Virus record (IMG/VR): IMGVR_UViG_3300025073_000126
Coordinates: 1-31,967 of that record
DNA from: a virus
Strand: one strand, 5' to 3'
DNA: 31,967 nt
In this document: piece by piece, positions 2,990-31,967 of the stretch
Numbering within the stretch: position 1 is the first letter of the stretch
Layout: every line of letters begins with the position of its first letter
The notes under the pieces: model-generated
Seen by the model: the letters and a program-made list of their open reading frames with translations, nothing else
Databases searched by the model: none
What the model was told of the DNA's origin: nothing
Made by a program: the position numbers and the translations under genes

Positions 2990-2990
2990 A

Positions 2991-3122: not shown

Positions 3123-3167
3123 AGTTCAATAGCTCCTCAAACTCATTTCACACTCTTATATTAGTAG

Positions 3168-3980: not shown

Positions 3981-4030
3981 TATTAAACTCCTCCCACTTA
4001 TATTGATGATTAATATATATTTTTATAATC

Positions 4031-4369: not shown

Positions 4370-4878
4370 CAGGTCACCTCAAATTCTTTTATTCCATTTA
4401 TTAATTCAATAACTCTATTTATTGGTTTAAATTTTCTACTTCCAAATGTGTGATTATATTCAACACCATATTTACCAGAAGGTAGCCGAACAGACCAATG
4501 ACCATCTTCATTTGTGATTTTTTCTTTAATAACTTCTCCAATCTCATTATATATAGTTACATTTACACCTTTAATCGGAGAATTATTTTTACTAAAAATA
4601 TATCCAAATAATTTAATATCACCTATTATCAAATCTTTACTGCGAGCAGGAATGATATCATTTGATACAATCTTAGGGACATCTATCTTTGGTAATTTTG
4701 GTGCAACAGCAGAAACAGCGGCTTCATCAGATTTTATAGATTTAGATAATTTAGAAACTTTATTGTTTAATAATTTAATATTATTATCTATTATGACTAA
4801 ATATTTTTCCATAGATTCTAATCTTTCAGATATAGAATAGATTTCATCTATTGCGGATTTTACTTTTTCTTCTGGCAT
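4369..4878 (-). CDS. Coiled-coil protein with C-terminal Ig-like (carboxypeptidase regulatory-type) domain
   Basis: This 169-aa protein has a heptad-like helical N-terminus (about residues 1-50, 'ERLESMEKYLVIIDNNIKLL'), a Pro/Val/Ile linker, and a beta-sandwich C-terminal domain from about residue 84. The pattern 'GYIFSKNNSPIKGVNVTIYN' followed by 'TNEDGHWSVRLPSGKYGVEY' is the classic layout of the carboxypeptidase regulatory-like / transthyretin-like fold (G.v....g.pi.ga.V.i.....t..DG.f...l..G.Y.v). In phages such domains decorate fibres, baseplates and capsids and may bind surface glycans. It starts behind an AAGGA site 9 bp after the 1203-aa fibre gene, so it may be a small fibre-associated or chaperone-like partner of that fibre. 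Domain assignment is firm; the role is inferred. Confidence 0.6.
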   Translation of the reverse strand: MPEEKVKSAIDEIYSISERLESMEKYLVIIDNNIKLLNNKVSKLSKSIKSDEAAVSAVAPKLPKIDVPKIVSNDIIPARSKDLIIGDIKLFGYIFSKNNSPIKGVNVTIYNEIGEVIKEKITNEDGHWSVRLPSGKYGVEYNHTFGSRKFKPINRVIELINGIKEFEVT

Positions 4879-4886
4879 ATTAATCC

Positions 4887-18757: not shown

Positions 18758-19219
18758 TTATCTATGTGCTGAGCAAAAATCATGAGTTTTTGGAGCTTGT
18801 CGCTTGCACTGCTTCCCATTTTCTTTTGTAAACAAACATCTTTTAAATTCTGTAATGGTCGGAATCTCATCAAAATCTTCCATTATAATTGGAGAAAAGT
18901 TTTCTAAATCTTCATCTTCTTCCATAACAATAGGAGATGGAGCTTGTTCTTTTTTAAATTCTGGAGATGTATTTGATTCCGAATCTTGTAATTCTTCGAA
19001 GCCATAAATTTCAGCTCGACGCTGTTGTTCATTTGCCGCCTCAATATCATCTAAGTCTTTTTGAAATTCAAAAAAATCATTATAAGCAGCATCATATTCT
19101 TCTACATCTTTTTCAACCAATTGTATACCGCGTCGTCCAGAATCTTTTGGTAAAGGCACCTGCCTTTGAGGTTTACCCTCAATTAAAAACGTCCGCTGAA
19201 TTAGAAGATTCTTTCTCAT
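18758..19219 (-). CDS. Acidic protein with C-terminal Cys/His zinc-binding motif
   Basis: A 153-aa product from ATG 19219, chosen because GGAGG lies 6 bp upstream; a GTG two codons earlier would lie nearly on top of that site. The middle is strongly acidic and low in complexity ('EEDEDLENFSPIIMEDFDEI'), probably disordered. The end, 'CLFTKENGKQCKRQAPKTHD' then 'FCSAHR', has C128, C138, C149 and H152, a small CCCH zinc-binding unit of the kind found at the ends of many small phage and bacterial proteins. Role unknown; it may bind nucleic acid or protein. The first 41 bp overlap the end of the M15 peptidase gene, so the two are coupled. Confidence 0.5.
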   Translation of the reverse strand: MRKNLLIQRTFLIEGKPQRQVPLPKDSGRRGIQLVEKDVEEYDAAYNDFFEFQKDLDDIEAANEQQRRAEIYGFEELQDSESNTSPEFKKEQAPSPIVMEEDEDLENFSPIIMEDFDEIPTITEFKRCLFTKENGKQCKRQAPKTHDFCSAHR

Positions 19220-19907
19220 CTCCACCCTCCTTCATTTTTAAACCCCAATGCCACCATTCTTCTTTGTAATTCTCAAAACCTTCAGAAGATAAAGCATCTG
19301 CAAGAATTTTTCTATTCTGTTTGATATCTAAATCAATATCATCAGAATCTAATCTATCACTTTGATCCATATTAGCATTTCCATTTTTATCAAAACCCAT
19401 CTCTACTTCTTTATCTTTATATAAAAGAGTTAAGTCTACCGATCGGCCACTTCTATGATTTAAGTATGAAATATTATCTGAATCTAATTTAAGTTCTTCA
19501 TACCCTCCTGTATAAGTTTTTAATTTTTCACGCCAATCATCTGGATTAGTATCTTTCAATTCCCTCTCTTGTGTTTTAACTATTTTCTTCTGTTCATCAA
19601 GAGTTCTGTATCCATATAAAATTAAAAAATTATAACCATCAGGAAGAGTATCTTCGGCTTTTCTTAAAGATTCTAATACATCTGTAGCCAATTTTATATT
19701 TTTACCATCCACTAACCATCTGGCATCTATTTTAAATCCATGTTCTGAAACATCAACAAGAAAAGGGTCTTCATCGGAATCGCTAAACATTAGATCTAAA
19801 ACATCTAAACTTTCTTGATATAATCCTTGTTTTGATAAAATTGAAGCCAATGCAATTAGCCTTAGTCTCTTCAAATCATTAGGCGGACTTTTAACATTGA
19901 AAGGCAT
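19179..19907 (-). CDS. VanX-like D-Ala-D-Ala dipeptidase / M15 peptidase with N-terminal helical tag
   Basis: The 242-aa protein has the complete zinc site of M15D peptidases: 'NHRSGRSVDLTL' gives H151 and D158, and 'EEWWHWGL' gives the catalytic E217 and third ligand H220. Spacings H-x6-D and E-x2-H equal those of VanX (H116/D123 and E181/H184), and R101 in 'ILYGYRT' corresponds to VanX R71. The enzyme should cleave D-Ala-D-Ala or a related bond in peptidoglycan precursors or crosslinks; in a phage it may be the endolysin or a virion wall-degrading enzyme. The first 40 residues are extra relative to VanX and carry a helical-hairpin motif ('ALASILSKQGLYQESLDVLD') shared with the neighbouring kinase-like proteins. 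No signal peptide. Good AGGAG site. Confidence 0.75.
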   Translation of the reverse strand: MPFNVKSPPNDLKRLRLIALASILSKQGLYQESLDVLDLMFSDSDEDPFLVDVSEHGFKIDARWLVDGKNIKLATDVLESLRKAEDTLPDGYNFLILYGYRTLDEQKKIVKTQERELKDTNPDDWREKLKTYTGGYEELKLDSDNISYLNHRSGRSVDLTLLYKDKEVEMGFDKNGNANMDQSDRLDSDDIDLDIKQNRKILADALSSEGFENYKEEWWHWGLKMKEGGDEKESSNSADVFN

Positions 19908-19992
19908 TAATTACTCCTATACAATATGACTATTAATATTAATATTATGAAATATGATGAGAGTATTATCCAACATATTAATGGGAAAGCGC

Positions 19993-20841
19993 ATGATTCA
20001 TTCAAAACTAAATACGTTATCCAAAATTTTACGGGCTCAAGAATTAAATGATGAAGCAAAGGCAATAGATAATCTTTTTAATAATTTTGGCGAAGAAACT
20101 GACGAAACCCTTTCTGCTATAAATTGGGAACAAGAGTTAAATCAAAAACCATTTGCCGGAGATATTGATCCAGAAGAGGCAAGTTTTTTTGGATTATCTA
20201 ACTCTCTATTGTATGAACTAAATAAAAAGCCATTTACAGATACAAATACATATGATATTAAAAACATCAAAAAGTCCTTGATAGATTTAGGATTAAAAGA
20301 GAGTGGAAGTGGCTACTTTCGAATAGTATATTCTTTACCAAGTAGTGAAGATTTTGTTTTAAAAATATCAAAAAGTGGCGAATCTGGCATTAAAATGAAT
20401 AAAGATGAGTTCTACCTTCAGCAAGAATTTAGCGGTTTATTTCCAAAAGTTTATGCTCATTCAGATTCCTTTTCATGGATTATTATAGAATCAGCAAATG
20501 TTATAAAATTTAATTCTGAAATAAATAAATTTTTTCCAAAAATAGCTGCGTTTATAGATCAACAAAACTCTGATGATTCACCACTTGTTACGGATATATT
20601 TAGTATATTTAATAGATATGATCTGCTACCTATAGCAAACTTATTACACTGCACTGAAACAGAAGTTAAAGCGGTTCTTAAGAGCGATCCTTTATTTTTA
20701 AGATTATTAAAAGTTTCAAATAAAACAGGGCTAAGCATAGATGAGATTCGCCAGGATAACGTTGGAACTTCTAAAATAACTGGCGAATTTATGATATTAG
20801 ATGCTTCTATCTTCGATGAACCACATAAAGGATTATTTTAA
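19993..20841 (+). CDS. Kinase-like fold protein, paralogue 1 (plus strand)
   Basis: The 282-aa product from ATG 19993 aligns end to end with the next gene. The earlier ATG at 19954 would add 13 residues with no match in the paralogue and no ribosome site. The N-terminal tag 'LNTLSKILRAQELNDEAKAI' precedes a kinase-like domain: a Gly-poor loop 'GSGYFRIVYSLP', a Lys strand 'FVLKISK', a Glu-rich helix 'DEFYLQQEFSGLFPKVYAH', a hinge 'FSWIIIESANVI', a catalytic-type loop 'EIRQDNVG' and a DFG-like 'ILDAS'. The Asp expected at the catalytic loop is Glu, so activity is uncertain; pseudokinase or small-molecule kinase-like (aminoglycoside phosphotransferase-type) are both open. It is one of two genes transcribed opposite to all others. 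Confidence 0.55.
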   Translation: MIHSKLNTLSKILRAQELNDEAKAIDNLFNNFGEETDETLSAINWEQELNQKPFAGDIDPEEASFFGLSNSLLYELNKKPFTDTNTYDIKNIKKSLIDLGLKESGSGYFRIVYSLPSSEDFVLKISKSGESGIKMNKDEFYLQQEFSGLFPKVYAHSDSFSWIIIESANVIKFNSEINKFFPKIAAFIDQQNSDDSPLVTDIFSIFNRYDLLPIANLLHCTETEVKAVLKSDPLFLRLLKVSNKTGLSIDEIRQDNVGTSKITGEFMILDASIFDEPHKGLF

Positions 20842-20863
20842 ATCTTTTTATTAAGAGGACCGT

Positions 20864-21661
20864 ATGTTTACTTCAAAGCTTAAAATATTATCTAATCTTC
20901 TACGTGCTCAAGAATTAAATGATGAAGCAAAAGAAGTAGATGATTTATCTATTATTGATTGGGAAAAAGAATTAGGACAGAAACCGCTTTCAGATACACA
21001 AGAAGAAGAAGAATTTCTGGGACTTACCTCTGGGTTATTAGATAAATTAAATAATGAATTACAAAATAAATCTACTCTAAGAGCCGTAAATGATTATCTA
21101 AAGTCTCTTGGATTTAAATATATTAGTGAAGGTGCGTTTAGAGCTGTTTATAGTTTACCAAATAATGATGCTTTTGTATTAAAAGTTTCCAAAAGCTCCC
21201 TTTATTATGATATGAATGAAAATGAGTTTAAACTACAGCAAGAATTTAGCGGTCTATTTCCAAAGGTTTACGCTCATTCTAAGGATTTCTTTTGGATTAT
21301 GGTTGAAGCAGTAAATGTTATAACTAACGATGAAGATATAGACCGATTCTTTCCTATATTAACTTCTTATTTAGACGAGAAATATCCCTTGGAACAACAA
21401 GCGCTTTATATTGAAAAAAAACCATTAATAGCAAATATACTTGCATATAGTTATAATTCTATATATACAGCACAATTACTACGATGCGAAAAAGATGATG
21501 TCATAAATATTTTAAGAATGGATCCACTATTTTCTAGATTATTAGATTTGAGAGAAAAAATAGGTATGACTTTAAGTGAAATTAGAAAAGGAAATGTAGG
21601 CACATCGAAAGTCACAGGAGAATTTAGAATAATAGATGCATCCGTAAGCCAAATGCTTTAA
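20864..21661 (+). CDS. Kinase-like fold protein, paralogue 2 (plus strand)
   Basis: This 265-aa protein follows its paralogue by 22 bp and has a strong AGAGGA ribosome site. Matches include the N-terminal tag 'KILSNLLRAQELNDEAKEVD', 'GAFRAVYSLPNNDAFVLKVS' (nucleotide-loop and Lys strand), 'NEFKLQQEFSGLFPKVYAHS', the hinge 'FFWIMVEAVNVI', and the C-terminal 'EIRKGNVGTSK' then 'FRIIDAS'. As in the first copy, Glu stands where kinases have the catalytic-loop Asp, while the Asn and the metal-binding Asp are kept. Divergence is greatest in the helical insert (about residues 150-230). The end of the gene meets the end of the convergent ART-like gene with only 5 bp between. Substrate unknown. Confidence 0.55.
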   Translation: MFTSKLKILSNLLRAQELNDEAKEVDDLSIIDWEKELGQKPLSDTQEEEEFLGLTSGLLDKLNNELQNKSTLRAVNDYLKSLGFKYISEGAFRAVYSLPNNDAFVLKVSKSSLYYDMNENEFKLQQEFSGLFPKVYAHSKDFFWIMVEAVNVITNDEDIDRFFPILTSYLDEKYPLEQQALYIEKKPLIANILAYSYNSIYTAQLLRCEKDDVINILRMDPLFSRLLDLREKIGMTLSEIRKGNVGTSKVTGEFRIIDASVSQML

Positions 21662-21666
21662 TATAA

Positions 21667-22596
21667 TTAAATCGTATCTATATCTTCTTCGTGCTCTAAA
21701 TCCTTCCACCAATCCTCTTTGATACTTTTATCATATTTACTCTCAGAAGGATTAAAAGCTCCTCCTCTTCTGTAAAAAACTAATGGTTTATATATCAGAA
21801 CTTTATGATTCATATCTTTAATAATCCAATCCAAAATTCCGCAAAAATTAGAATATGATTGGGCGAGGCATAAATCCTGATATCCTCCAGACATGTAAAT
21901 ATTGACATTTTCATTATCAATTAAAATATCTGAAACTATTTTTTCAAAAACATCTTTTCCCATCTCTGTATCAAGAGAATGCTTGGTATTCTGTTCTAAA
22001 AAATCTCTTAATTCTATATATTTATCATGACTTGGGTTTTTTTTGATAAAACGATCATTTCTATAATCATAAGAATAAAAAAAATTTGTTATTACAAGAT
22101 CAAATTTTGAAATATTAGATTTTACTACATTAACATAATTGCCGAATTCCTCTTGGGAAAGTTCCAAAGAGCAGTCTGGATGTATTAAGATTAACATATT
22201 TTTAATATTATTTGAACAAGTCAATAATTTTAAAACATCTTTATATCCATTTAAGTTATATTTTTTAAGTGAATCATATAGGCTTATAACTTTATTACTA
22301 TATGAAGATAATTTAACTCTCAGAAATTCTGAATCTGCTGTAGAATTATTATATTTAGCTATTCCCACTAAAGTGGCTTTTAATAATTCTTTGCCTGTAT
22401 ATTTATATTCACCGGGATTATCTGCATCTTTAAACATATCATCAGGAATTAAACAAAGAAAAACGCCATAATCTTCTCCATGGTAAACAGAGGAGGTTAT
22501 GGCGTGATCAATTGCAAACTTACGATTTTTAGTTAAATAATCTCCGGGTCGAATATTGTCTGCTGTAATTGGCATAGCACGATAAAATCGATTCAT
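21667..22596 (-). CDS. ADP-ribosyltransferase-like domain fused to an alpha/beta (isochorismatase-like?) domain
   Basis: The 309-aa product starts at ATG 22596 behind GGGAG; the TTG one codon earlier is less likely. Residues 1-80 ('FYRAMPITADNIRPGDYLTK', 'FAIDHAITSS', 'YGVFLCLIPDDMF', 'GEYKYTG') follow the layout of compact ART domains in phage polyvalent proteins: R6 in the first strand, a 'GD.lT....fA..HA' segment, then strands before a Glu/Tyr-rich loop. The C-terminal 175 residues form an alternating alpha/beta domain, with 'NMLILIHPDCSLE' (131-145), 'FDLVITNFFYSYD' (165-177) and 'VNIYMSGGYQDLCLAQ' (231-246). The last strand-turn-Cys pattern (C243) recalls isochorismatase/nicotinamidase folds. 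The ART call is moderate, the second domain is a guess. It converges with the kinase-like pair. Confidence 0.5.
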   Translation of the reverse strand: MNRFYRAMPITADNIRPGDYLTKNRKFAIDHAITSSVYHGEDYGVFLCLIPDDMFKDADNPGEYKYTGKELLKATLVGIAKYNNSTADSEFLRVKLSSYSNKVISLYDSLKKYNLNGYKDVLKLLTCSNNIKNMLILIHPDCSLELSQEEFGNYVNVVKSNISKFDLVITNFFYSYDYRNDRFIKKNPSHDKYIELRDFLEQNTKHSLDTEMGKDVFEKIVSDILIDNENVNIYMSGGYQDLCLAQSYSNFCGILDWIIKDMNHKVLIYKPLVFYRRGGAFNPSESKYDKSIKEDWWKDLEHEEDIDTI

Positions 22597-22603
22597 CAAA
22601 TTT

Positions 22604-22620
22604 CTCCCATCTAATGGGAG
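22604..22620 (-). promoter_or_regulatory. Hairpin covering the ribosome-binding site of the ART-like gene
   Basis: A perfect 7-bp inverted repeat (CTCCCAT / ATGGGAG, arms 22604-22610 and 22614-22620) with a 3-base loop lies in the mRNA leader. Its 3' arm on the transcript contains the GGGAG that should bind 16S rRNA 7 bp before ATG 22596. When folded, the hairpin would hide the site and reduce translation. No poly-U follows, so it is not a typical terminator. Confidence 0.45.
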
Positions 22621-22657
22621 CGCTAAATATTAATATGTTTGCTTCTATAAATCCACA

Positions 22658-23971
22658 TTAAACGGTAAAGACTCTGTCAAGTATTTTACCTATTTTACGA
22701 GTATACCAATCCAAATTAAATAATACATCTAGATCTTCTTTATTTAAATATTTTTTTAAATCTGATGATTCAAGTACTACATCATATAGTAGGCGACTTT
22801 CTGACCAAGATTTAGCTGCACAATTTTGAACCAAAGTATATGCCTCTTCGCGAGATAGTCCTTTTTCTACTAACGCTAACATTATACGTTGAGCTACAAA
22901 GGCGCCACCAGTCAGTTCTATATTTTTAAGCATATTATTAGGTAGGATTTGCAATCCAGATAAGATCTCATTTAATCTCTCTAACATAAAGTGTACCGTA
23001 ACCGTAGCATCTGGGCCTATAACCCGTTCCACTGAAGAATGAGAAATGTCTCGCTCATGCCATAATACCACATTTTCCATTGCAGAATCTGCATAACCAC
23101 GGACAAGTCTGGCTAACCCACAAAGATTTTCACTAAGAATAGGATTTCTCTTATGAGGCATCGCAGAGCTACCCTTTTGGCCATCAGAAAATGGCTCCAT
23201 TACTTCCATAATTTCTGTGCGTTGAAGATTACGAATTTCAACCACAATTTTTTCAATTGAAGTTGCTAACAACGCGAGACAATGAAAATAGTGAGCATGA
23301 AGATCTCTTTGAATGATTTGATTTGAAATTGGAGAAGGAGTTAACCCCAAGTGTTGACAAACGTATTCCTCTATTCTTGGATCTAGATGAGCAAATGTTC
23401 CAACTACACCGGACAATTTACCAACAGCAACTTCTTTTGTGGCCCGAGACAATCTCTCTTTATCTCTCCGTAATTGATCCCATAATATAGCCATCTTCAT
23501 TCCGAAGGTTGTTGGTTCAGCATGGATTCCGTGACTACGACCCATACATAAAGTAAAAGCATGTTTATGAGACAACGCTTCTAATATTTGTAATACATTA
23601 TTTAAAGAATTTAATATTAATTCTCCAGACTCTTTTAGTTGTATTGCAAAAGCTGTGTCTAATACATCACTGCTTGTCATTCCTTTATGTAGATATCGGG
23701 CCGATTCTCCAATAGTTTCGTTTATCATAGTTAAAAAAGCAATAACATCATGCTTTGTTGTATTTTCAATTTCGATAATACGTTCTACAGGAAACTTATC
23801 TGGCAATAAACATTTTGAACCCAAACGACAAGCTGCCGCAATTCCATCTGGGATTTCTTTAATTTCTTCCATTGCTTCGCATGCCAATAATTCAATCTCC
23901 AGCATGATACTGTATTTGCGTTGATCTGACCAAATAGCAATAGCTTCTGGTTTTGCATATCGATAAATCAT
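22658..23971 (-). CDS. purB: Adenylosuccinate lyase
   Basis: This 437-aa enzyme aligns over its full length with B. subtilis-type PurB (431 aa), from the N-terminal 'MIYRYAKPEAIAIWSDQRKY' to the C-terminal helix. PurB catalyses two fumarate-releasing steps of purine synthesis: SAICAR to AICAR, and adenylosuccinate to AMP. Catalytic elements are intact: H74 in 'TTKHDVIAF', H147 in 'GRSHGIHAEPT', and the flexible signature loop 'GSSAMPHKRNP' (267-277) with the catalytic Ser. Further conserved blocks are 'GKLSGVVGTFAHLDP', 'QIIQRDLHAHY' and 'LWHERDISHSS'. The gene has a strong AAAGGAG site and sits 9 bp after the small 83-aa gene. A complete copy in a phage structural region is unusual and suggests boosting of adenine nucleotide supply during infection. 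Confidence 0.93.
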   Translation of the reverse strand: MIYRYAKPEAIAIWSDQRKYSIMLEIELLACEAMEEIKEIPDGIAAACRLGSKCLLPDKFPVERIIEIENTTKHDVIAFLTMINETIGESARYLHKGMTSSDVLDTAFAIQLKESGELILNSLNNVLQILEALSHKHAFTLCMGRSHGIHAEPTTFGMKMAILWDQLRRDKERLSRATKEVAVGKLSGVVGTFAHLDPRIEEYVCQHLGLTPSPISNQIIQRDLHAHYFHCLALLATSIEKIVVEIRNLQRTEIMEVMEPFSDGQKGSSAMPHKRNPILSENLCGLARLVRGYADSAMENVVLWHERDISHSSVERVIGPDATVTVHFMLERLNEILSGLQILPNNMLKNIELTGGAFVAQRIMLALVEKGLSREEAYTLVQNCAAKSWSESRLLYDVVLESSDLKKYLNKEDLDVLFNLDWYTRKIGKILDRVFTV

Positions 23972-23980
23972 AATGCTCCT

Positions 23981-24232
23981 TTATACAAATAGATCCATAT
24001 TATGAATAATTATTTCTTGTACTTTTTTTGATAATACATCAAATACTTCAGATATTTGATATGGTTCATATTCGTGCATCTCATCAGACCAAATCCATAA
24101 TGTAACTTTGCTATTTACAATACAAAATTTTACACATTCGCTTTGGTCGAGAAGGCGATATTTTCCAATATCATAACCAATTGCCTCAAAATCATCACAC
24201 AATTGTTTATATTCAGAAAACCAAAAATTCAT
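23981..24232 (-). CDS. Small hypothetical protein (83 aa) upstream of purB
   Basis: An acidic, aromatic-rich alpha/beta protein with two Cys residues ('YRLLDQSECVKFCIVNSKVT') and three Trp residues ('VTLWIWSDEMHEYEPYQISE'), ending in a helix. No domain is recognised and no membrane segment or signal peptide is visible. The start follows an AAGGA site. It lies 9 bp upstream of purB in the same direction, so the two are probably cotranscribed; whether it has a part in nucleotide metabolism is unknown. Confidence 0.5.
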   Translation of the reverse strand: MNFWFSEYKQLCDDFEAIGYDIGKYRLLDQSECVKFCIVNSKVTLWIWSDEMHEYEPYQISEVFDVLSKKVQEIIIHNMDLFV

Positions 24233-24241
24233 TTATAATCC

Positions 24242-24412
24242 TTATAAATCTTCTTGAAATATATAATCTTTCCAAGGTCTAATAATAATTCTCCACGCAT
24301 CTTTATAAAAGTCACTAATAAAGTTTTGAATATCTGAATCTAAATCCATTATTTTATCAGTTAATCGATGATTTTTCTTAAATCTGTTCCAGAACAATCT
24401 ATATCTAGTAAA
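24242..24412 (-). pseudogene. Possible gene remnant or very small gene
   Basis: A minus-strand frame is open for 57 codons from a TGA at 24413-24415 to a TAA at 24242. The translation looks protein-like (aromatic and charged, 'WNRFKKNHRLTDKMDLDSDI', then 'FISDFYKDAWRIIIRPWKDY'). The only ATG (24349) would give 35 aa and has no ribosome site. The frames just upstream also look coding-like in short pieces. I read this as either the decayed end of a gene or a tiny gene with an unrecognised start. Confidence 0.3.
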
Positions 24413-24507
24413 TCAATTGCCCAAAATAGACGGCAAACCACCTATATGGAATATACCGGACGGGGGATCTTGGTTCAAGATTATATGAATTAGAAAGGTA
24501 AGAAAAA

Positions 24508-25923
24508 TTATTTAATATTATTTTGCAAAAAGGTTAAAATTGCTTGTACGTGATTTAAAAAATCTGATTGTAGAGAAACAGATTTCATAGAATTACACGT
24601 TTGACAACAAGAAACAATATTCTCCGGAATATAACCTTCATCGTTGTTTACTCTATCTAATCCAATTGTATTTATAACAGAGCCACAATAATGACATGGT
24701 TTTTGCCAATACTTAATAAAATAAGTATATGATAAAGCAAATTGAAAACCTTTCTTTCTCGCTCTTCTTTTGTGCACATTATATCTTGCGGTTGGTGTAA
24801 GATACATATCTTTCGTTATATTACCAGAATATTTTACATGAGGAAGAACATCTTCTATTTCTCCGGTTTCTTGATAAGAAGATATTTTACGAAGATGATT
24901 AAAGAATTCAGATTCACTTAATGCATTTTTCATATAATTGCATCGCGTACAGCATGGAGCACAATTATTTATTTCATATCCTTTACTAGAGTCTATTCTA
25001 TCAATACCATTATTATTTAATATACCACAATATCTACATGGCTTAGAAGTTATTTCCAAAAATTCACTCATAGAGATAGAAACATTCTTTTTGCGATAAT
25101 TTGCCTGACAAATAAGACTTGTCCATCGGCCATTATCTGTTTTGTGATATTCTGCATTCTTTTTTAATCTTTCCTCTCTGTGTACTATATAGTATTTTTT
25201 ATTTACTCTTTTATAGTGTTCTAAATTTTCCAGTCTCCATTTTTTGCTTTTTAATAGATATTTTCTTTTATTTATTGGATTTGAAATATATTTAGAATGT
25301 AATTTACTTTTACAAGTTTTACAAGCCGTTTCATAACCATCACCTCTAGAAGAATCTTTATTAAAAGAATCTATCAATAAGGTTTGTTGACATACTTTGC
25401 ATTTTTTAATAGTTGGAGCCTGTACTATTCCGAACGCAATCTGTTGTTGTTTTTTTAAAACACTTTTGCGTCTTTGCTCTTTTCGACAAGATTTACAACT
25501 ATTCTCATAACCATCTTTGGTTATATTATTATGATCAAAATCAACTAATGATAATCTCTGTTCACACTTCTTACAGGTTTTATGAGTTAATAGGTTAATA
25601 TTTATAGGCTCTTTAATTTTATTACTTTTTAATTTTTTTCGCTTTTCAGCTCGTTTTGCATTAATTTTATCTTTATTTAAATGATAATGCTCAAGGGCGC
25701 TTGCATTATAATGCTCTTTGTTTTCGATTCTCCACTTATCTCTCGTATCTATCATTTTTTGTTTTTTTGCAGGATCTGAAGTTCGTTTTAAATAAATATC
25801 ATGGCAACATGCTTTGCATTGAGATTTTAAATTATCTAAATTATATTTATCTTTTCCAAATTCAGATATTGATTTTGTTTGCTTGCACGCAGAGCATGTT
25901 TTGGTATCAAAATTATCATTCAT
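24508..25923 (-). CDS. Double-HNH endonuclease-like protein with three zinc-ribbon modules
   Basis: This 471-aa Lys-rich protein has three N-terminal modules of one design, CxxC-(11-13)-F-(10-15)-CxxC: 'TCSACKQTKSISEFGKDKYN', 'TCKKCEQRLSLVDFDHNNIT' and 'KCKVCQQTLLIDSFNKDSSR', each closed by a second CxxC (residues about 10-40, 118-148, 172-205). Two HNH-like cores follow near residues 293-335 and 409-450: 'CRYCGILNNNGIDRIDSSKG' with 'CCTRCNYMKN', and 'CHYCGSVINTIGLDRVNNDE' with 'CCQTCNSMKS'. These have the CxxC, D-R-(I/V), GY, N, CxxCN and Lys of phage HNH nucleases, though His of 'DHI' is replaced by Arg. It is probably a free-standing homing-type nuclease that inserted after the capsid gene. 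It has an AGGAG site. Confidence 0.65.
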   Translation of the reverse strand: MNDNFDTKTCSACKQTKSISEFGKDKYNLDNLKSQCKACCHDIYLKRTSDPAKKQKMIDTRDKWRIENKEHYNASALEHYHLNKDKINAKRAEKRKKLKSNKIKEPININLLTHKTCKKCEQRLSLVDFDHNNITKDGYENSCKSCRKEQRRKSVLKKQQQIAFGIVQAPTIKKCKVCQQTLLIDSFNKDSSRGDGYETACKTCKSKLHSKYISNPINKRKYLLKSKKWRLENLEHYKRVNKKYYIVHREERLKKNAEYHKTDNGRWTSLICQANYRKKNVSISMSEFLEITSKPCRYCGILNNNGIDRIDSSKGYEINNCAPCCTRCNYMKNALSESEFFNHLRKISSYQETGEIEDVLPHVKYSGNITKDMYLTPTARYNVHKRRARKKGFQFALSYTYFIKYWQKPCHYCGSVINTIGLDRVNNDEGYIPENIVSCCQTCNSMKSVSLQSDFLNHVQAILTFLQNNIK

Positions 25924-25968
25924 TGTATAACTCCTATTTATTTTACACTTGTTAATGCAGCCATAGAA

Positions 25969-25974
25969 ATTATA
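25969..25974 (-). promoter_or_regulatory. Possible -10 element for the HNH gene
   Basis: A perfect TATAAT on the minus strand, 46 bp before ATG 25923 and downstream of the capsid terminator, so the HNH gene would need its own start of transcription about here. No good -35 box at 16-18 bp is visible, so this is weak evidence in an AT-rich space. Confidence 0.22.
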
Positions 25975-26060
25975 CTAAATTATTTCAAAACACTCTTGGG
26001 ATTTTTATAAAAATTTTGCCAAGCAATTTAAACTAGGATGGGTTGTAACCGAAATCTTTT

Positions 26061-26096
26061 ATAAAAAAATCCTCCAAAATTTCTTTTGGAGGATTT
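26061..26096 (-). terminator. Strong intrinsic terminator after the major capsid gene
   Basis: A perfect 13-bp stem (arms 26067-26079 and 26084-26096) closes on a 4-base loop that reads GAAA in the transcript, a stable GNRA tetraloop. Seven U residues follow directly in the RNA (complement of 26063-26069). It lies 32 bp after the capsid stop codon and separates the highly expressed head genes from the accessory block. Confidence 0.9.
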
Positions 26097-26127
26097 GGAA
26101 TTTTAACGATCTCTCTAAAACTTAGAT

Positions 26128-27141
26128 TTAATCAGTCACATAACCACTTGCAGCGCCACGAGGATTGACGATACCTATACCTATTATTTCACTCACCACC
26201 CAGCCTAACTTCAATTGTTTAGGTTCGTCAGCGGGTAATACTTCTATGTCCTGGCGAATAGGCATAACACCTACGAACTCAGGATCTGCAACTGCGAAAA
26301 CCTGACGGTTCTCAACAACCTTAGAGACGATGATGTCGGCACCGAAGATTGAGCCATAAAGGCCAGTTTGTAGCAATTCACGCTGAGTAACAGGATCTAC
26401 CTGTGAAGCACCAGCAGCACCAGCAGATTCCCAATTGAGCATATCGGTAAATTCGTTGATATGCATAAAATATTTAGAAGTTACCAGGTCCCACCGATCA
26501 ACTTGACGCTTTAGAGCCAAAAGGCCCTGCTTTGAAAGTTCATCAGCAGTTGTAGTATTATCTAAACGCTGGTAGGCATTCTCTCCACCTTTAGCACTAT
26601 CAGTTGCGAAATCAAGAGCAGCAAATACGTTCTTGTCTTCCTGGGCTTGAATTTCCTGACGAGCCTTTTGCTGGGCACGATCGATAACATTAAATCTCCG
26701 ACGCTTGACTTCAGCAATACGGACAGTTGGGTTAGAAACCACTTCAAACTCAGGAATAGTTACTCTGTCACCAAAAACGCGTGATTCTGGAGCGGTACCG
26801 TTACTAGAAATAACAACTGCACCAACATCAATATCGCGGTCATATATTGGCAAAGCACCTTGTGGGAGGGGATCGACTACGAGAGCCTTTCGTCCTACAC
26901 CCTGATAGTCAAGGTTTCTTCGGATTGGGTTGGCCATAGCCTGACCTAAAGCAATTTTGCCTTCTTGAGTCATTAGAGCTTGCTTGATCATCTCATCTCT
27001 CTGCTCTTCATTTAGTGAGGAACCTTGAGATAGAGCTGAACTAGAAGGTGCTAACTCTTCAATAATTGACGCATACCTTACGATCTGGGCCAAAGCATCT
27101 TTTACGTTTTTTGCGCTTAATTCGCCTTGTGTATTAAACAT
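26128..27141 (-). CDS. Major capsid protein (HK97-fold type)
   Basis: This 337-aa protein has the profile of phage major heads: an N-terminal helical part (residues 1-75), an extended acidic/beta region ('LPQGALPIYDRDIDVGAVVI', 'VTIPEFEVVSNPTVRIAEVK'), a long helix 'FNVIDRAQQKARQEIQAQED' typical of the HK97 spine, then a P-domain-like 'LLALKRQVDRWDLVTSKYFM', and a beta-rich end ('IFGADIIVSKVVENRQVFAV', 'LKLGWVVSEIIGIGIVNPRG'). Its strong AAGGAG site, richer G+C and regular codon use fit a highly expressed gene. It is preceded by a head-associated gene and followed by a strong terminator. A separate cleavable scaffold domain is not obvious. Confidence 0.78.
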   Translation of the reverse strand: MFNTQGELSAKNVKDALAQIVRYASIIEELAPSSSALSQGSSLNEEQRDEMIKQALMTQEGKIALGQAMANPIRRNLDYQGVGRKALVVDPLPQGALPIYDRDIDVGAVVISSNGTAPESRVFGDRVTIPEFEVVSNPTVRIAEVKRRRFNVIDRAQQKARQEIQAQEDKNVFAALDFATDSAKGGENAYQRLDNTTTADELSKQGLLALKRQVDRWDLVTSKYFMHINEFTDMLNWESAGAAGASQVDPVTQRELLQTGLYGSIFGADIIVSKVVENRQVFAVADPEFVGVMPIRQDIEVLPADEPKQLKLGWVVSEIIGIGIVNPRGAASGYVTD

Positions 27142-27155
27142 AATTTAACTCCTTA

Positions 27156-27818
27156 TTATGCAATTTGGACGCCAGCAAGGTACAATGCACCATACTGTGA
27201 GGTTGAGGTTTCGCCGGCCATGGTATTCGTAGTTGAAACTAGAGAAATATCATCAACACGACCGATATGTAAAGCGACAGCAATACCATTGCCACCACCT
27301 GTGGTAGTTAATTTACCATCATTAGTACCATCGGCAGCATCACCATAAATTGGTGCATTAAGGGTTGCGGCAGCATATTCGGCAGAAGAAGTCCATGCAT
27401 CAGAAGTGATACCATAAAGTCCTGGTTTGGTCCACAAAGTGGCCTTACCTGAACCGACCATGGTGCTTGGTCCAATAACAACAACACCTGAGGTTGAAGA
27501 GGTACCAAATCCAGTTCCTTTACCGACAGTTGCTCCAATTACAGTACCAAACATGGTGCCATAACTTGCGGATCCGTCACCGCCGACAGAGCTACCTTCA
27601 TCAACTAATCCATAGAAAACGCTATGAGTTGCTACGCGTCCTAAGATCAAATGAATCTGGGGACCTGGGTCACCAAAAACATCCGCAGCATACAAGTCTG
27701 TTGCTACGTTAAGAGCCTGAAGTACCGCAACTTCACCGCCCACAATTAAGGAGACGTTGTCGTCTTCGATATCAAATTGGCCTAGGGGTTCAATTCCTGG
27801 CTGTAGTGGTTTTAACAT
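27156..27818 (-). CDS. Probable head decoration / cement protein
   Basis: A 220-aa Gly/Ser/Thr/Ala-rich beta protein with no charge clusters ('YGTMFGTVIGATVGKGTGFG', 'STSGVVVIGPSTMVGSG'), and the same G+C-rich codon use as the adjacent capsid gene. It starts behind TAGGAG and ends 14 bp before the capsid gene, so both are likely made in large amounts from one transcript. A second abundant head protein next to the major capsid protein is normally a decoration or cement protein that stabilises the expanded shell. There is no diagnostic motif, so a minor capsid or vertex protein is the alternative. Confidence 0.6.
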   Translation of the reverse strand: MLKPLQPGIEPLGQFDIEDDNVSLIVGGEVAVLQALNVATDLYAADVFGDPGPQIHLILGRVATHSVFYGLVDEGSSVGGDGSASYGTMFGTVIGATVGKGTGFGTSSTSGVVVIGPSTMVGSGKATLWTKPGLYGITSDAWTSSAEYAAATLNAPIYGDAADGTNDGKLTTTGGGNGIAVALHIGRVDDISLVSTTNTMAGETSTSQYGALYLAGVQIA

Positions 27819-27839
27819 AAGTTGTTCTCCTACTTATTT

Positions 27840-30497
27840 TTAATTTAGAATAGATTCAATCGTTGAATCTATCATTTTAGAAACTTCAAAAAGTCCGTCA
27901 TTATCAGCTTGATTTGCAATTTTAATCAAAGCGTCAATCACTGCGAGATCAGCGTGTTTTCCTCGAAAGTTTCCTGTAGGAGCGCTCTTAGCCACACCTT
28001 CAGAATGTGATTTTTGCTCTAGCAAATTTTCCACTAAGCCCCCATTTCCCATTGCATCAGAAACAACAATAGCATTTGGATGTGCTTCGTGAATTAAGTC
28101 TGCACCCTTCTCTTTATGAACATCATAAAGATCAGAATAATCAGCCTTTACATTCTCCCTCTTCTGATTATACATGCTTTTAAGCCCTGCATAATATAAC
28201 TTAGAATATTGATCTGAAAGACCAGAAATAGCATCACTTATATACTTATTTGGATATTGATCTGCCATTTTCCTCATACCAATGTTTAATCTATTAGTAG
28301 ATTCTTTAATAAAACTCTGTGAAAGTAATAGATTTTCAGCCACTTTTTGTGAAACTGGATTATTACGATAATAATTTATAGCATTTTTCCATCCACTATG
28401 TCTGCGGCGTCCTTGTTTGGGTAATGAATGTCGAATAAACTTTCTTAATTGAGAACGATTAAATACGCCCTCTTTATAAAGATAACCTAAAGAATTTAAA
28501 TAATCAATTTGTGGATTACCAGTTTTCCTGATAAAACCTCCCCATCTATTATCCGGATCCATAAAGGCCATACCTAATGGAGTTTGTAATAAATCACTTG
28601 CAATTCTAAAAGCCGCACTTCTAAATCCTGGTGGTTTATTTGAGATATCTATTTTTTCTCCATAAACATCTAAAATAATAGGATTATCAGATCCAGAACC
28701 AAGATCTGTTGAGGCTCCAGTTGAGGCTCCGGGTCTACTTTCTGCAATAGGTCCTGTGGCTGCACCAATATTAGCACTTCCAGCTCCTGCACTAATTGCA
28801 GATTCAGCGGCTGGGTAAATGTCGATTACCACCTGTCTCCAATGTTCTAAAGCACTCAGCAGTTGCTGATCCGCCTGAATAGTCTCTTGGAAGCCATCTA
28901 GAGAAGCCAAGTCACCTCTAAGAGCTTCTTGATTTGTTAAAAATTCCGTAATTTCAGCTTTTAATTCTTCCGTTTGTTTTGCGGCAATTATCATAGCGGC
29001 CGGATCTTTTGGTTCCATTAAAATAGAAGCACTCTCTTCATTATCTTTTAATTCATCCAAAACATCTATATTCTGTTCGTTACCATAAGTTCTTTGATTA
29101 AAACGTAACGTTCCATGAGCAGCTCTAGCGGCAGCAATTGCTTTTCCCAAATCTGAAACGCTGGTTTGATATGTTTGTAGGTCATCTTTATTATCAGGAT
29201 TAGATAAGTAATCCCACAACGATATTCCACCCCAAGCTAATAAACCCAATACTGCGGCTATACCCAGCCCTTTAAGGGCTAGTGGTCCTGCAACTCCGAG
29301 TAAAAATTTTCCTACCACTCCCTTTTGAACAGCGGCTGAAAAATTTTGAGCAATCTCTGTATTTTTTAAAAGTCTACTTGACTCTTCGGCACCAGCCTTC
29401 TTGGAAGCTGTGGCCAAACTTTTAGTCTCTTTTTCCACCATCTTTTTGACAGCTTTTGCTTGTTCGTCAGATAAGCCCTTTGCTATTTTTGCTTTATCTG
29501 TGTGTATTTGAGCGACTTCATCTGCAATACTTTGCAATTTTTGAGCAGATTCAGCAGATTCTTGTTTTAATGACTCTATAACTGGCTGAATTGCTCGTTT
29601 AGTTTCTTCTCCAGAACGTGCGGCGGCAGTAGATAATTCTGCAATAGAAGCTTCCATCGCACCAAGTCTGGCAGCAATTTCAACGCTATTATCTAATGAC
29701 TCTACAGCTTTAGCTGGCATAGCTACACCAGTAGCTTGCTCAACCTTAGCTTTTGTAACTGCTACTTTTGGAGCAGAATTTTGTCGAATTCTTGCGCCCA
29801 ACTCGCCTTCTTGAAGTGGCTTTGGTTTTGGAGCCACCGGGACGCCTCGACCTCTTATACCAGCCGCTGGTTGAGCGGGAGACTGCACTTTTGGAGCAAT
29901 TGGAGGTTCTGCTTTTGGAGCAATTGGAAGTTCTGCTTTTGGAGCAACTGGAGGTTCTACTTTTGGAGTAACTGAAGGTTCTACTTTTGGAGTAACTGAA
30001 GGTTCTACTTTTGGAGGACCTATGGTCTTTAAACGTCTTGAGGCTACTTCTAAAAGCGCAACTTGATCTGGGCCTTCTTTTGAGACGACTCGCTGCATAT
30101 ATGCAACTAATTTAGCAGACTCTGTATCATTTATAGAAATCCCTTTAATAGCATCTAATACATCTTCGCAATTCATTACTGCTTCTTGTATAAAATCTTC
30201 CGAAGTATCTATCCAGTTTGGATCTGTCAACTTAGGTCCATTATTAGAAAGCTGTTCCCCAATAAATCTAAGTTTTCTACCGATAGCAGGTAAAGATTTC
30301 CCTTCGGTGACTTTCGTAAAAACTTCTAAAAGTTGTTGGGAAGAATCAAAAGATATTTTAGTAGCAGATGGAAATAATTCTTTAAATAAAGCTTCACCAA
30401 CTTCCGTTGCTTTACCAGCTTTTTTGGTCAAATATTTTTGCATTATATCAGAATAAATATCAAATATTTCTGAGGAACCTGCGCGATTTATTTTCAT
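27840..30497 (-). CDS. Large modular head protein with Pro-rich repeat, coiled coil, hydrophobic segment and helical tag
   Basis: An 885-aa protein in ordered modules: a helical N-terminal domain (1-160), a six-unit Pro-rich repeat (162-209, unit PKVEPSVT and variants), a basic linker (210-265), a long coiled coil (about 270-375), a hydrophobic Gly/Leu/Ala segment that could span or enter a membrane (396-430, 'GLGIAAVLGLLAWGGISLWD'), a second helical and Gly/Ser-rich part, then a helical domain (about 590-860), and at the end the hairpin motif 'DALIKIANQADNDGLFEVSK'. I recognise no protease active site. Position upstream of capsid genes suggests an inner-head, ejected or scaffolding protein; the possible membrane segment would suit DNA ejection. 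Its GGAG site overlaps the upstream stop. Confidence 0.5.
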   Translation of the reverse strand: MKINRAGSSEIFDIYSDIMQKYLTKKAGKATEVGEALFKELFPSATKISFDSSQQLLEVFTKVTEGKSLPAIGRKLRFIGEQLSNNGPKLTDPNWIDTSEDFIQEAVMNCEDVLDAIKGISINDTESAKLVAYMQRVVSKEGPDQVALLEVASRRLKTIGPPKVEPSVTPKVEPSVTPKVEPPVAPKAELPIAPKAEPPIAPKVQSPAQPAAGIRGRGVPVAPKPKPLQEGELGARIRQNSAPKVAVTKAKVEQATGVAMPAKAVESLDNSVEIAARLGAMEASIAELSTAAARSGEETKRAIQPVIESLKQESAESAQKLQSIADEVAQIHTDKAKIAKGLSDEQAKAVKKMVEKETKSLATASKKAGAEESSRLLKNTEIAQNFSAAVQKGVVGKFLLGVAGPLALKGLGIAAVLGLLAWGGISLWDYLSNPDNKDDLQTYQTSVSDLGKAIAAARAAHGTLRFNQRTYGNEQNIDVLDELKDNEESASILMEPKDPAAMIIAAKQTEELKAEITEFLTNQEALRGDLASLDGFQETIQADQQLLSALEHWRQVVIDIYPAAESAISAGAGSANIGAATGPIAESRPGASTGASTDLGSGSDNPIILDVYGEKIDISNKPPGFRSAAFRIASDLLQTPLGMAFMDPDNRWGGFIRKTGNPQIDYLNSLGYLYKEGVFNRSQLRKFIRHSLPKQGRRRHSGWKNAINYYRNNPVSQKVAENLLLSQSFIKESTNRLNIGMRKMADQYPNKYISDAISGLSDQYSKLYYAGLKSMYNQKRENVKADYSDLYDVHKEKGADLIHEAHPNAIVVSDAMGNGGLVENLLEQKSHSEGVAKSAPTGNFRGKHADLAVIDALIKIANQADNDGLFEVSKMIDSTIESILN
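29871..30014 (-). repeat. 24-bp in-frame tandem repeat encoding a Pro-rich linker
   Basis: Six 24-bp units encode PKVEPSVT (twice), PKVEPPVA, PKAELPIA, PKAEPPIA and PKVQSPAQ, running right to left on the plus strand. The first two units are nearly identical in DNA; the others drift. This is an extended, polyproline-rich spacer between two helical domains and is likely to vary in copy number between relatives. Confidence 0.9.
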
Positions 30498-30500
30498 AAT

Positions 30501-30887
30501 TTATTCTCCGGAAATTTCAGATATTGTTCTCTCAATCCGGTAGGCCAGTTTAATATTACCTAGATCTGCGGCAGCTTCAGCAGCAAGTTTAAGTTCTAAT
30601 AACAACTTTGCTTTTGCTTCTTTTTGCTCTTCTTCGCTTATCTCTTCTAACTCAGGATTTGTTTCTGCGTCATCTGCTAAGGCAGAATCAACAAATGCAT
30701 CTAAACTTTTCTTTGCATCACCCATAGTATTTTTAACTTCAGTAGCCTTCTGATTGACTGTATCTAACGTAGAAGCTTGAGCCATCAAATCTAATCTTTC
30801 GGCTAAAGAAAGAATATATTTTTCAAATTCCATAGCCGTTTCGCTCTGTTCCCAAGCCTGTTTAGTTATATGATCCCATTTTGGCAT
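30501..30887 (-). CDS. Acidic helical head-region protein (scaffold-like) with C-terminal helical tag
   Basis: A 128-aa, almost entirely helical protein, very acidic around residues 70-90 ('ALADDAETNPELEEISEEEQ'). Size, charge and helicity suit a scaffolding or core protein of the prohead, and it lies in the head gene cluster directly upstream of the 885-aa protein. Its last 25 residues ('KLAAEAAADLGNIKLAYRIE', then 'RTISEIS') match the C-terminus of that neighbour (G and I-(D/E)-x-T-I in the same places). The ribosome site is AGGAG. The stop lies 3 bp before the next ATG, with the next ribosome site in its last codons. Confidence 0.5.
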   Translation of the reverse strand: MPKWDHITKQAWEQSETAMEFEKYILSLAERLDLMAQASTLDTVNQKATEVKNTMGDAKKSLDAFVDSALADDAETNPELEEISEEEQKEAKAKLLLELKLAAEAAADLGNIKLAYRIERTISEISGE

Positions 30888-31027
30888 AATAATCTCCTAA
30901 TCTATGATAAATTAGTTTAATTAGTAGTCTAGTGTATTAATATCAAAGCGGGTACATCTAAATTATATTTTAATGCTGCCGCTAATCTATGCTATCACTC
31001 TTAAGATTAAATATCATTTGATAATTT

Positions 31028-31111
31028 TTAAATAGCATATGCAAAATTATTCAGATTCATGGATATTAAGAATTGCAATAATTCTTTTAATTTTAGACCC
31101 AACTTATTCAT
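31028..31111 (-). CDS. 27-residue micro-ORF resembling a stand-alone copy of the helical tag
   Basis: ATG 31111 follows an AGAGGA ribosome site at good distance, and the frame ends at TAA 31028. The product is 'KLKELLQFLISMNLNNFAYA' with short flanks; it aligns without gaps to the tag of the kinase-like proteins (shared L, L, L-N, A, A-I positions). Downstream to about 30929, other frames also look protein-like, notably 'RLAAALKYNLDVPALILI', so this may be the start of a small gene broken by frameshifts. The two readings cannot be separated here. Confidence 0.35.
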   Translation of the reverse strand: MNKLGLKLKELLQFLISMNLNNFAYAI

Positions 31112-31128
31112 AAATTATATCCTCTATT

Positions 31129-31824
31129 TTAGACGAAAAGAAATTCCAAAGTTCCCATCAATGATGATGGCGGACCAGTCACATATGCTACTGCGGGATG
31201 GCCCTCTGTAGGTTGGGCGGTAGTTAATTTTCCGTCTAATCCTACATATAAATTTGCATTTAATGGATAAATTTGAGTGGTATCAAACTGGTCTGTAGCA
31301 TATATTCCCCGATGATAATGTACCGTTACCCGACCCGATCCAACTGTAGAATCATCTCCAGGTTTCGTTGCTATTCTATATACATAACTAGTTATTATTT
31401 TAAAAGCATCATTATTTCCATCTTCATCTGAATCATAATTCAATACAGTACCAGCAGGTACAATTACCAACCCATTTACATCATTTAAAGATACTGTAAT
31501 GGTAGATGTGAAACTATTTCGATTTACATTTGGAAATTCTAATGGAGCCATTACTTCTGCAATATTAGTTTTTACTCCATTAACCTCTACTATATTAGAG
31601 GAGGCTACTTCAATTACTATAATTTCATCAATTTGAGCTTTACTAAATGCATTTGTCCTGGCATCATCTATTATTCCTAATGGCGCCGTTCCATCACTAA
31701 CTCCCACAACGATATCATTTCCTAAAATTTTAAGCTGTGCAATCATACCTGGCTCAAATTCGGCCGTAGGATCCAAAGGATAACTTGCAGGTAATGATGT
31801 GCCGGTATGTATAACTCTTAGCAT
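31129..31824 (-). CDS. Probable virion/head protein with beta-rich fold
   Basis: A 231-aa beta-rich protein with a Gly/Ala/Asp composition like head decoration or vertex proteins: 'PTAEFEPGMIAQLKILGNDI', 'GTAPLGIIDDARTNAFSKAQ', and a terminal strand pattern. One loop, 'DSDEDGNNDAF' (about residues 130-140), has the spacing of a calcium-binding D-x-D-x-D-G loop. It starts behind GGAG, shortly after a terminator, and so is probably the first gene of the head transcript. No exact family is recognised; position and composition favour a structural role. Confidence 0.5.
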   Translation of the reverse strand: MLRVIHTGTSLPASYPLDPTAEFEPGMIAQLKILGNDIVVGVSDGTAPLGIIDDARTNAFSKAQIDEIIVIEVASSNIVEVNGVKTNIAEVMAPLEFPNVNRNSFTSTITVSLNDVNGLVIVPAGTVLNYDSDEDGNNDAFKIITSYVYRIATKPGDDSTVGSGRVTVHYHRGIYATDQFDTTQIYPLNANLYVGLDGKLTTAQPTEGHPAVAYVTGPPSSLMGTLEFLFV

Positions 31825-31932: not shown

Positions 31933-31967
31933 TTAAGAGGTTTTCTTGATATTATCAATTGTAGCAA
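31933..31967 (-). CDS. C-terminal end of an upstream gene (truncated by window edge)
   Basis: The last codons, ATIDNIKKTS-stop, read on the minus strand from the edge to TAA at 31933, the only frame at the edge that ends just ahead of the terminator. Only about 11 residues are visible, so the product cannot be named; prohead protease or portal genes are common here but this is unproven. Confidence 0.45.
   Translation of the reverse strand, partial: ATIDNIKKTS

Follow-up and report, generated by a model that had tools for sequence, protein, structure and literature searches.

Internal proteins of bacteriophage T4 bear a capsid-targeting sequence (CTS), described in the parts of the cited reports that were available as a short terminal module on diverse, variable proteins that is tied to the prohead core (PMC3012670, PMC9026906, PMC9024508, PMC5694885). 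Partial accounts also mention a CTS reported in DarB of phage P1 and another, in the form of long propeptides, suggested in SPN3US, one of the giant phages stated in an excerpted source to carry and eject many head proteins (PMC10052503). The scaffolding protein of phage P22 has a C-terminal helix-turn-helix, which is U-shaped and lies on the inner face of the coat in the procapsid according to the section of the report at hand (PMC9965877), and microcompartment encapsulation peptides are presented in the available extracts as short helical domains on enzymes that load a protein shell (PMC11157265, PMC12339742). Here we analyse a 31,967-base stretch of DNA (the window; IMG/VR record IMGVR_UViG_3300025073_000126), a piece of a phage-G-like megaphage, and a motif of about 28 residues, hereafter the tag, that recurs in otherwise unrelated proteins of this phage and its relatives. 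With moderate confidence, we read the tag as a hairpin that would dock cargo into the prohead.

A recurrent motif at protein ends

The window lies reversed in a 335-kb IMG/VR contig (G001), of which it is the reverse complement of positions 101171-133137. Eighty related loci were gathered by way of the capsid protein; 11 of their contigs were read whole and one (G010) in part, and G009, a whole contig and near-duplicate, was excluded before counting because 66.7% of its 31-mers are common to G007. The counting set comprised 2,910 open reading frames (ORFs) from 11 related phage contigs. Since genes were taken as the longest ORFs from a simple ORF caller, some N-terminal offsets are start-choice artefacts.

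A profile of four window segments, taken from an M15-type peptidase, two kinase-like proteins and a protein of 885 amino acids (aa), gave 8 matches at an E-value (E) below 0.01, the four seeds included, and none in reversed proteins; the new copies that it found in relatives sit mostly at protein ends. After three search rounds, the iterated profile (24-row alignment A2) identified 84 copies at E<0.01 among the 2,910 ORFs, against 0 in reversed proteins and a mean of 0.0 over ten shuffles. Because this profile was trained on the contigs in which copies were counted, the count was repeated with held-out profiles omitting each contig's own copies (those of G001 and G002 together), with rows still picked by the iterated search. 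The held-out profiles returned 80 copies at E<0.01 in 74 proteins and 0 in reversed proteins, and at E<1 the numbers were 104 real and 2 reversed. N-terminal copies number 40, C-terminal copies 17 and internal copies 23, so that 57 of 80 (71%) are terminal, where chance placement would give 15.5% (10.5% N-terminal, 5.0% C-terminal, 84.5% internal). The first-pass annotation of the window had placed the motif always at one end, which is true of these 57 copies and not of the other 23.

The recurrent motif as a whole is thus real and exceeds chance, as that annotation had supposed. A chance likeness of amphipathic helices chosen by eye does account for one of the segments originally named, a micro-ORF, and could account for both kinase-like N-termini and, if that segment is taken alone, for the C-terminus of the window's 128-aa protein. 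For the motif as a whole it is refuted by the lack of reversed matches with held-out profiles, the terminal enrichment, the DNA islands described below and the absence of any match in 8 other phage records, and we give it next to no weight. On the contigs examined, the profile separates the motif from random helices and the motif is conserved in relatives, two of the points on which its first description had been left to stand or fall.

When IMG/VR was scanned with near variants of the tag, 78 loci were added; they hold 92 further copies, all distinct from those already counted, of which 60 are N-terminal, 13 C-terminal and 19 internal. As these loci and 20 further contigs were found through the tag itself, they add sequences and no independent frequency.

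The tag as a detachable module

The consensus over about 28 residues reads L-I-K-L-A-x-x-L-D-x-x-G-L-x-x-E-A-D-x-x-D-x-I-I, with L and A positions conserved at regular spacing. The predicted fold is a pair of short amphipathic helices with a turn between them; this helical hairpin was modelled for the 128-aa copy alone and would be shared by most copies. Pfam searches at E<=10 with four tag sequences, one of them a composite consensus, returned a single chance-level match (RasGAP_C, E 0.13), and no description of such a module was found in the mostly open-access literature, seen in part, on capsid targeting, internal proteins of jumbo phages, virions of phage G, P22 scaffolds, helical hairpins and encapsulation peptides.

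With the tag masked, blastp at E<1e-3 sorts the 80 carriers found by the iterated search into 48 families, some of which remote homology could unite. In a single genome, the tag DNA forms an island of about 90 bases that reaches 81-83% identity between genes, while the flanks (60 bases upstream, 90 bases downstream) average about 28%. The gene upstream of the terminase gene, encoding a 155-aa protein, illustrates gain or loss: the protein stops at or just after '..LQTD' or '..LQSD' in G001, G002 and G007, and the gene continues into the tag in G004, G008, G012 and G013. Tags of different families are more similar within a genome (0.382) than between genomes (0.334), a difference reached in none of 500 label shuffles and expected if one partner fits all tags of a phage, or if tags were copied recently. 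Judged by its sequence, the tag is a homologous module rather than a product of convergence.

Islands of about 90 bases between otherwise unrelated genes, together with presence or absence among orthologs, would also be left by selfish or passive DNA, a module of little function carried from one gene end to another by recombination. Mean protein identity among tags is 33-44%, and N-terminal copies nevertheless retain L6 (93%), A10 (78%), L13 (97%), G17 (82%), A22 (82%) and D26 (80%). Retention of key residues (78-97%) at such low identity argues for selection on the protein, even if the profile misses copies that have lost them, and renders a module of so little function exceedingly improbable.

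Copies in the window

The window contains 355 ORFs, and for its own copies the held-out profile was built without G001 and G002. Under the iterated profile, which was trained on G001, the four main copies score E 2e-8 to 9e-6 and the next of the 355 ORFs 0.59. Single-segment queries were run in the other contigs, where 70 of 2,453 ORFs are tagged. With the 885-aa segment alone, tagged proteins make up 9 of the top 10 and 18 of the top 20 matches; the earlier statement that C-terminal copies are the weaker ones is wrong for this copy, which is the best in the window. The segment of the M15-type peptidase, whose body matches Pfam Peptidase_M15 at E 1.6e-10, retrieves tagged proteins as 5 of the top 10 and 9 of the top 20.

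The N-terminal copies on the two kinase-like proteins rank 4 and 5 of the 355 ORFs under the held-out profile and amount in effect to one copy, since the proteins are paralogs. They stand at the right end and in register, and are likely tags without independent significance. The likely true start of the 295-aa protein is the ATG at 19993. 'Kinase-like' is the label of the first-pass annotation and is weakly supported: the body of the 265-aa protein matches phrog_4301, of unknown function, at E 4.4e-7 and a protein kinase PHROG (phrog_15752) at E 0.042, and G001 247725-248849 matches Pkinase at E 0.0024, below the cut-off. The predicted structure of the 265-aa protein, with a mean predicted local distance difference test (pLDDT) score of 39.8, is unusable.

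The C-terminus of the window's 128-aa protein is absent from the 12 best profile matches, and its likeness to the tag is of a divergent kind, as detailed below. The 27-codon micro-ORF (31028-31111, minus strand) was rejected as a tag copy and is taken to be spurious, because it has no profile match and because the intergenic gap that holds it varies among relatives, measuring 39-69 bases in 7 of them and about 1 kb in 2 others. The six segments first proposed thus reduce to two clear copies (885-aa and M15), a likely kinase-like pair and a divergent hairpin.

Tags on head-operon proteins

The head operon has the order protease, 199-aa, 231-aa, 128-aa, 885-aa and 220-aa proteins, and capsid protein, the gene just upstream of the 199-aa gene encoding a head maturation protease domain (phrog_18299, E 5.5e-14). 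Core and scaffold genes usually sit between the protease gene and the capsid gene, and the three hairpin families (199-, 128- and 885-aa), being encoded there, stand at this usual place.

The 199-aa protein has a clear C-terminal tag copy (E 3.4e-7) and a weaker one before it (E 0.15), both with the held-out profile; the 3' end of its gene, which forms the last 35 bases of the window, had gone unmentioned in the initial description. In its family, 24 of 30 other distinct homologs have a C-terminal match at E<=0.01, and hhalign aligns the family with the tag at E 1.3e-7. The tails of the 885-aa family also align with the tag profile (hhalign E 1.4e-8), with 10 of 55 distinct tails matching at E<=0.01 and 17 at E<=10, and about 29 of the 55, counted by eye, stopping just before the tag. 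For the 128-aa family, hhalign gave an ungapped alignment of 29 columns at E 0.002 with a probability of only 14%, and none of 32 other distinct members matched at E<=0.01 (7 at E<=1). The C-terminal hairpin region is the longest strongly conserved stretch of this family, and AlphaFold2 predicts helices at residues 85-108 and 112-126 of the window protein (10-residue pLDDT means 69-87; predicted TM-score (pTM) 0.35). Foldseek comparison of this model with the PDB returned nothing at E<=0.001. Its C-terminus is credible as a divergent, family-level match to the tag, and by position the protein is a candidate scaffold or core protein. As far as the alignments tell, the tag is regular on the 199-aa family, divergent on the 128-aa family and optional on the 885-aa family.

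Two short patterns were seen near tags. In alignment A4, of the 128-aa protein (30501-30887) with its relatives, an A-(D/E)-D is conserved at mid-protein, between a likewise conserved N-terminal block (W..ED.....SEV) and the C-terminal hairpin; it is possibly a prohead protease site. Many N-terminal tags (in G003, G004, G012 and others) are followed by K-K-x-A or K-x-A, and several HExxH metallopeptidases start with a similar K-K-x-A; after tags, this could be a processing or second targeting signal.

Proteins that carry the tag

Pfam matches were compared between 78 of the 80 tagged proteins (the other two cross piece borders) and 78 untagged proteins matched for length and genome. The tagged proteins match 5 families, with one protein each, of which M15 peptidase, SLT transglycosylase and DUF5591 are above the cut-off and OmpA and MgtE_N below it. 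The controls match 52 families, for example ribonucleotide reductase, adenylosuccinate synthetase, sigma factors and AAA ATPases. Orphans make up most of the tagged set, which also holds cell-wall hydrolases and, rarely, known enzymes. An HExxH metallopeptidase family was recognised among them by eye from the sequences, and a PADLOC search of 10 tagged proteins gave 0 of 10. Tagged genes are scattered across the genomes, and in some of these N-tagged orphan genes follow one another in runs, for instance five within G012 1900-5448.

This make-up bears on where the tag might lead. Docking into another assembly, such as the tail or baseplate, an ejection conduit or an intracellular phage compartment, would suit the dispersal of the genes and the M15 and SLT cell-wall hydrolases, which are also found on tails, as well as a tagged 590-aa protein (G001 28420-30192) with matches to tail lysin and tape-measure PHROGs and a weak one to a glycine zipper. 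Nevertheless, the most regular copy ends the 199-aa protein, encoded between the prohead protease and the capsid protein, and its neighbours carry related copies; among three tagged proteins searched for tail matches (199, 464 and 590 aa), the 590-aa protein alone had any. We therefore regard a destination outside the head as rather unlikely.

A regulatory, chaperone or degradation signal, as opposed to one of localisation, could likewise stand at either terminus or between domains, positions that degrons and chaperone handles also take, and the within-genome similarity of tags would fit a single adaptor protein too. The presence of tags in the head operon and the scarcity of replication and metabolism enzymes among the carriers fit a structural destination better, and we hold a signal of this sort to be distinctly improbable.

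Among the internal copies, 11 have an in-frame ATG at the start of the tag, 10 of them preceded by a Shine-Dalgarno match that is 4 or more bases long. Among 9,595 other internal ATGs the share with such a match is 16.4%, and among 1,134 gene starts it is 69.9%. In new loci, it was present at 2 of 5 tag-start ATGs. Eight of the 11 copies belong to a single blast cluster, whose proteins consist of a metallopeptidase-like part, then the tag and then a tail. These observations suggest a nested, tagged second product in the HExxH metallopeptidase-tag-tail family (loci, mostly of this family, in Table 1).

Distribution of the tag

Profile A2 matches 15 of the 16 IMG/VR records tried; some of them are near-duplicates (G000 lies inside G001, G007 pairs with G009 and apparently G012 with G015), and one (G014) is doubtful, with an internal stop. 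None of 4 other phage records, among them phage G, gives a match, nor does any of the 4 records of T4, phiKZ, SPN3US and PaBG. Among the 20 further tag-carrying contigs, the highest copy number is 24, in a 223-kb fragment. Another contig, of 371 kb, carries 11 tag copies and a 56% identical capsid protein, and is one of four contigs with a capsid relative. The 20 contigs are fragments, so that a single capsid clade for all carriers is putative. Two pattern scans of 84,980 cellular genomes, able to detect close copies only, gave 36 and 75 pattern matches and 0 relatives, and tblastn of a typed tag consensus against named phages gave one chance match, to a single-stranded RNA phage (E 2). In 50,697 phage records, no homolog of the 885-aa protein (E<=0.1), the M15 peptidase or the 265-aa kinase-like protein (E<=1e-3) was found.

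Proposed role in head loading

According to the docking proposal, a hairpin fused to the N-terminus, to the C-terminus or between the domains of many unrelated proteins of phage-G-like megaphages would bind one common surface within the prohead as it forms. Candidates for this surface are the coat's inner face and a core built from the 199-aa and 128-aa proteins, both of which have related hairpins at their ends. A precedent for coat binding by a helical hairpin is the C-terminus of the P22 scaffolding protein (PMC9965877). Docking of this kind would enclose cell-wall hydrolases in the head, together with certain other enzymes and numerous small orphans, and these proteins would be ejected along with the DNA. 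A single binding site in the head would explain the use of the tag at either end, its gain and loss among orthologs, the similarity of tags within a phage and their presence in the head operon. The first-pass annotation had read the motif as a docking tag comparable to the capsid-targeting sequences of T4, though of a different kind. The modularity, the head-operon placement, the hydrolases among the carriers and the runs of N-tagged orphans speak for that suggestion, but only two of the six segments on which it was built are independently firm.

Several observations weigh against docking in the head. A profile made from the kinase-like pair retrieved 0 tagged proteins in its top 20, and 23 of the 80 held-out copies are internal. 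Most carriers are without known function, and the 590-aa carrier has its tail matches. In the head operon itself, the 128-aa match is weak by both measures, the 14% hhalign probability and the 0 of 32 members at E<=0.01, and the C-terminal tag of the 885-aa family is facultative, so that this copy is not essential for head assembly. Neither K-x-A nor A-(D/E)-D could be tied to the protease as a cleavage motif. Phage G, whose capsid protein is related, is without a profile match at E<=1, and a relative of the capsid protein is seen in only 4 of the 20 further contigs. Neither a virion proteome nor a binding datum was found for this phage group.

Going one step further, and more tentatively, one exchangeable hairpin may serve as a general head loading code, attached to the free end, be it the N- or the C-terminus, of core proteins and of dozens of rapidly changing cargo proteins. 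Recombination of the module of about 90 bases would recruit new cargo, and a ribosome-binding site within the genes of one metallopeptidase family, just before the tag, would yield a second, N-terminally tagged product.

The head cargo of uncultivated phages cannot otherwise be read from sequence. If the proposal is true, a 28-residue profile lists candidate head cargo for the whole group, mostly proteins of unknown function that would be likely early effectors. Usable at either terminus, the tag could also be transferred to enzymes so as to pack them into very large capsids, and it would represent a second, independently evolved solution beside the T4 CTS.

Gene context of the window

The major capsid protein of the window is 50.5% identical to gp27 of phage G (Table 1). 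The 220-aa protein encoded next to it had no match in Pfam and PHROG family searches, and in phage G the annotated decoration protein directly precedes the major capsid gene.

Other genes lie outside the main subject. An adenylosuccinate lyase is encoded at 22658-23971 (minus strand; Pfam Lyase_1, E 6.4e-52), and G001 30764-31804 (plus strand), which belonged to the untagged control set, one member of which matches the adenylosuccinate synthetase family, reads like such a synthetase; the phage therefore appears to carry part of purine synthesis. Between the capsid and lyase genes, a 471-aa ORF (24508-25923, minus strand) with repeated CxxC-type motifs and an HNH-like pattern is perhaps a homing endonuclease, judged by eye from its translation. 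The portal and terminase genes (G001 90249-94109 and 87366-90239, both plus strand) each match several unrelated PHROGs, among them LAGLIDADG endonuclease, thymidylate synthase and PhoH stretches, a sign that both may contain inteins or insertions.

Table 1. Tag copies and head genes of the window, with loci elsewhere in which an in-frame ATG and a Shine-Dalgarno match precede an internal tag
Feature	ORF or gene	Position	Strand	Basis or remark
Tag copy, C-terminus of 885-aa head-operon protein	27840-30497	27852..27941	-	held-out E 8.9e-4
Tag copy, residues 14-41 of M15-type peptidase	19179-19907	19785..19868	-	held-out E 0.073
Likely tag copy, N-terminus of 295-aa kinase-like protein	19954-20841	19996..20085	+	held-out E 1.0
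Likely tag copy, N-terminus of 265-aa kinase-like protein	20864-21661	20870..20953	+	held-out E 1.4
Divergent hairpin, C-terminus of 128-aa head-operon protein	30501-30887	30519..30605	-	hhalign, predicted structure
3' end of 199-aa head-operon protein	G001 100606-101205	31933..31967	-	body beyond window edge
Major capsid protein		26128..27141	-	phrog_2522 major head protein, E 1.5e-72
220-aa protein between 885-aa gene and major capsid gene		27156..27818	-	probable capsid decoration protein, by position
ATG and Shine-Dalgarno before internal tag		L110:8441-9634	-	
ATG and Shine-Dalgarno before internal tag		L108:16316-17275	-	
ATG and Shine-Dalgarno before internal tag		L151:12427-13380	-	
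ATG and Shine-Dalgarno before internal tag		L214:10107-10970	-	
ATG and Shine-Dalgarno before internal tag		L203:12229-13158	+	
ATG and Shine-Dalgarno before internal tag		L189:15122-16459	-	
ATG and Shine-Dalgarno before internal tag		L086:7523-8917	+	

Comparison with known systems

Tetratricopeptide repeat (TPR) hairpins have a similar two-helix size, and Foldseek returned TPR and TOM20 hairpins for the 128-aa model, none at E<2. Unlike tetratricopeptides, the tags are mostly single copies at protein ends rather than tandem solenoids, and the four tag sequences searched have no meaningful Pfam match. Microcompartments, for their part, are bacterial organelles with other shells, whose proteins would not be expected in a phage genome, and no sequence relation between their encapsulation peptides and the tag is claimed. 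The cargo-loading peptides of encapsulins likewise load enzymes into a protein shell.

The scaffolding protein of P22 may offer a structural parallel: the 128-aa candidate scaffold, so named by position, has a predicted C-terminal hairpin (pTM 0.35). In the available part of the P22 report the hairpin is described on the scaffold, whereas those of the megaphages occur on several head-operon proteins and on many cargo-like ones; the likeness is one of predicted shape and position, and coat binding by the megaphage hairpins is putative.

The T4 CTS, as far as the partly available sources describe it, resembles the tag in being one module common to otherwise unrelated proteins whose bodies differ from gene to gene, here with 48 families and 57 of 80 copies terminal. 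The CTS of these sources is N-terminal, comprises about 10 residues (in IPIII) and is removed by the prohead protease; in contrast, the megaphage tag has about 28 residues, is likely a hairpin and may be N-terminal, C-terminal or internal. Against the T4 genome, profile A2 gave nothing at E<=1, in a run that contained no positive record; elsewhere it matched 15 of 20 records. A protease domain is encoded beside the tagged head genes, and any cleavage of the tag would be putative. Taken together, these comparisons seem to support a megaphage tag that works like a capsid-targeting sequence, but is no member of T4's.

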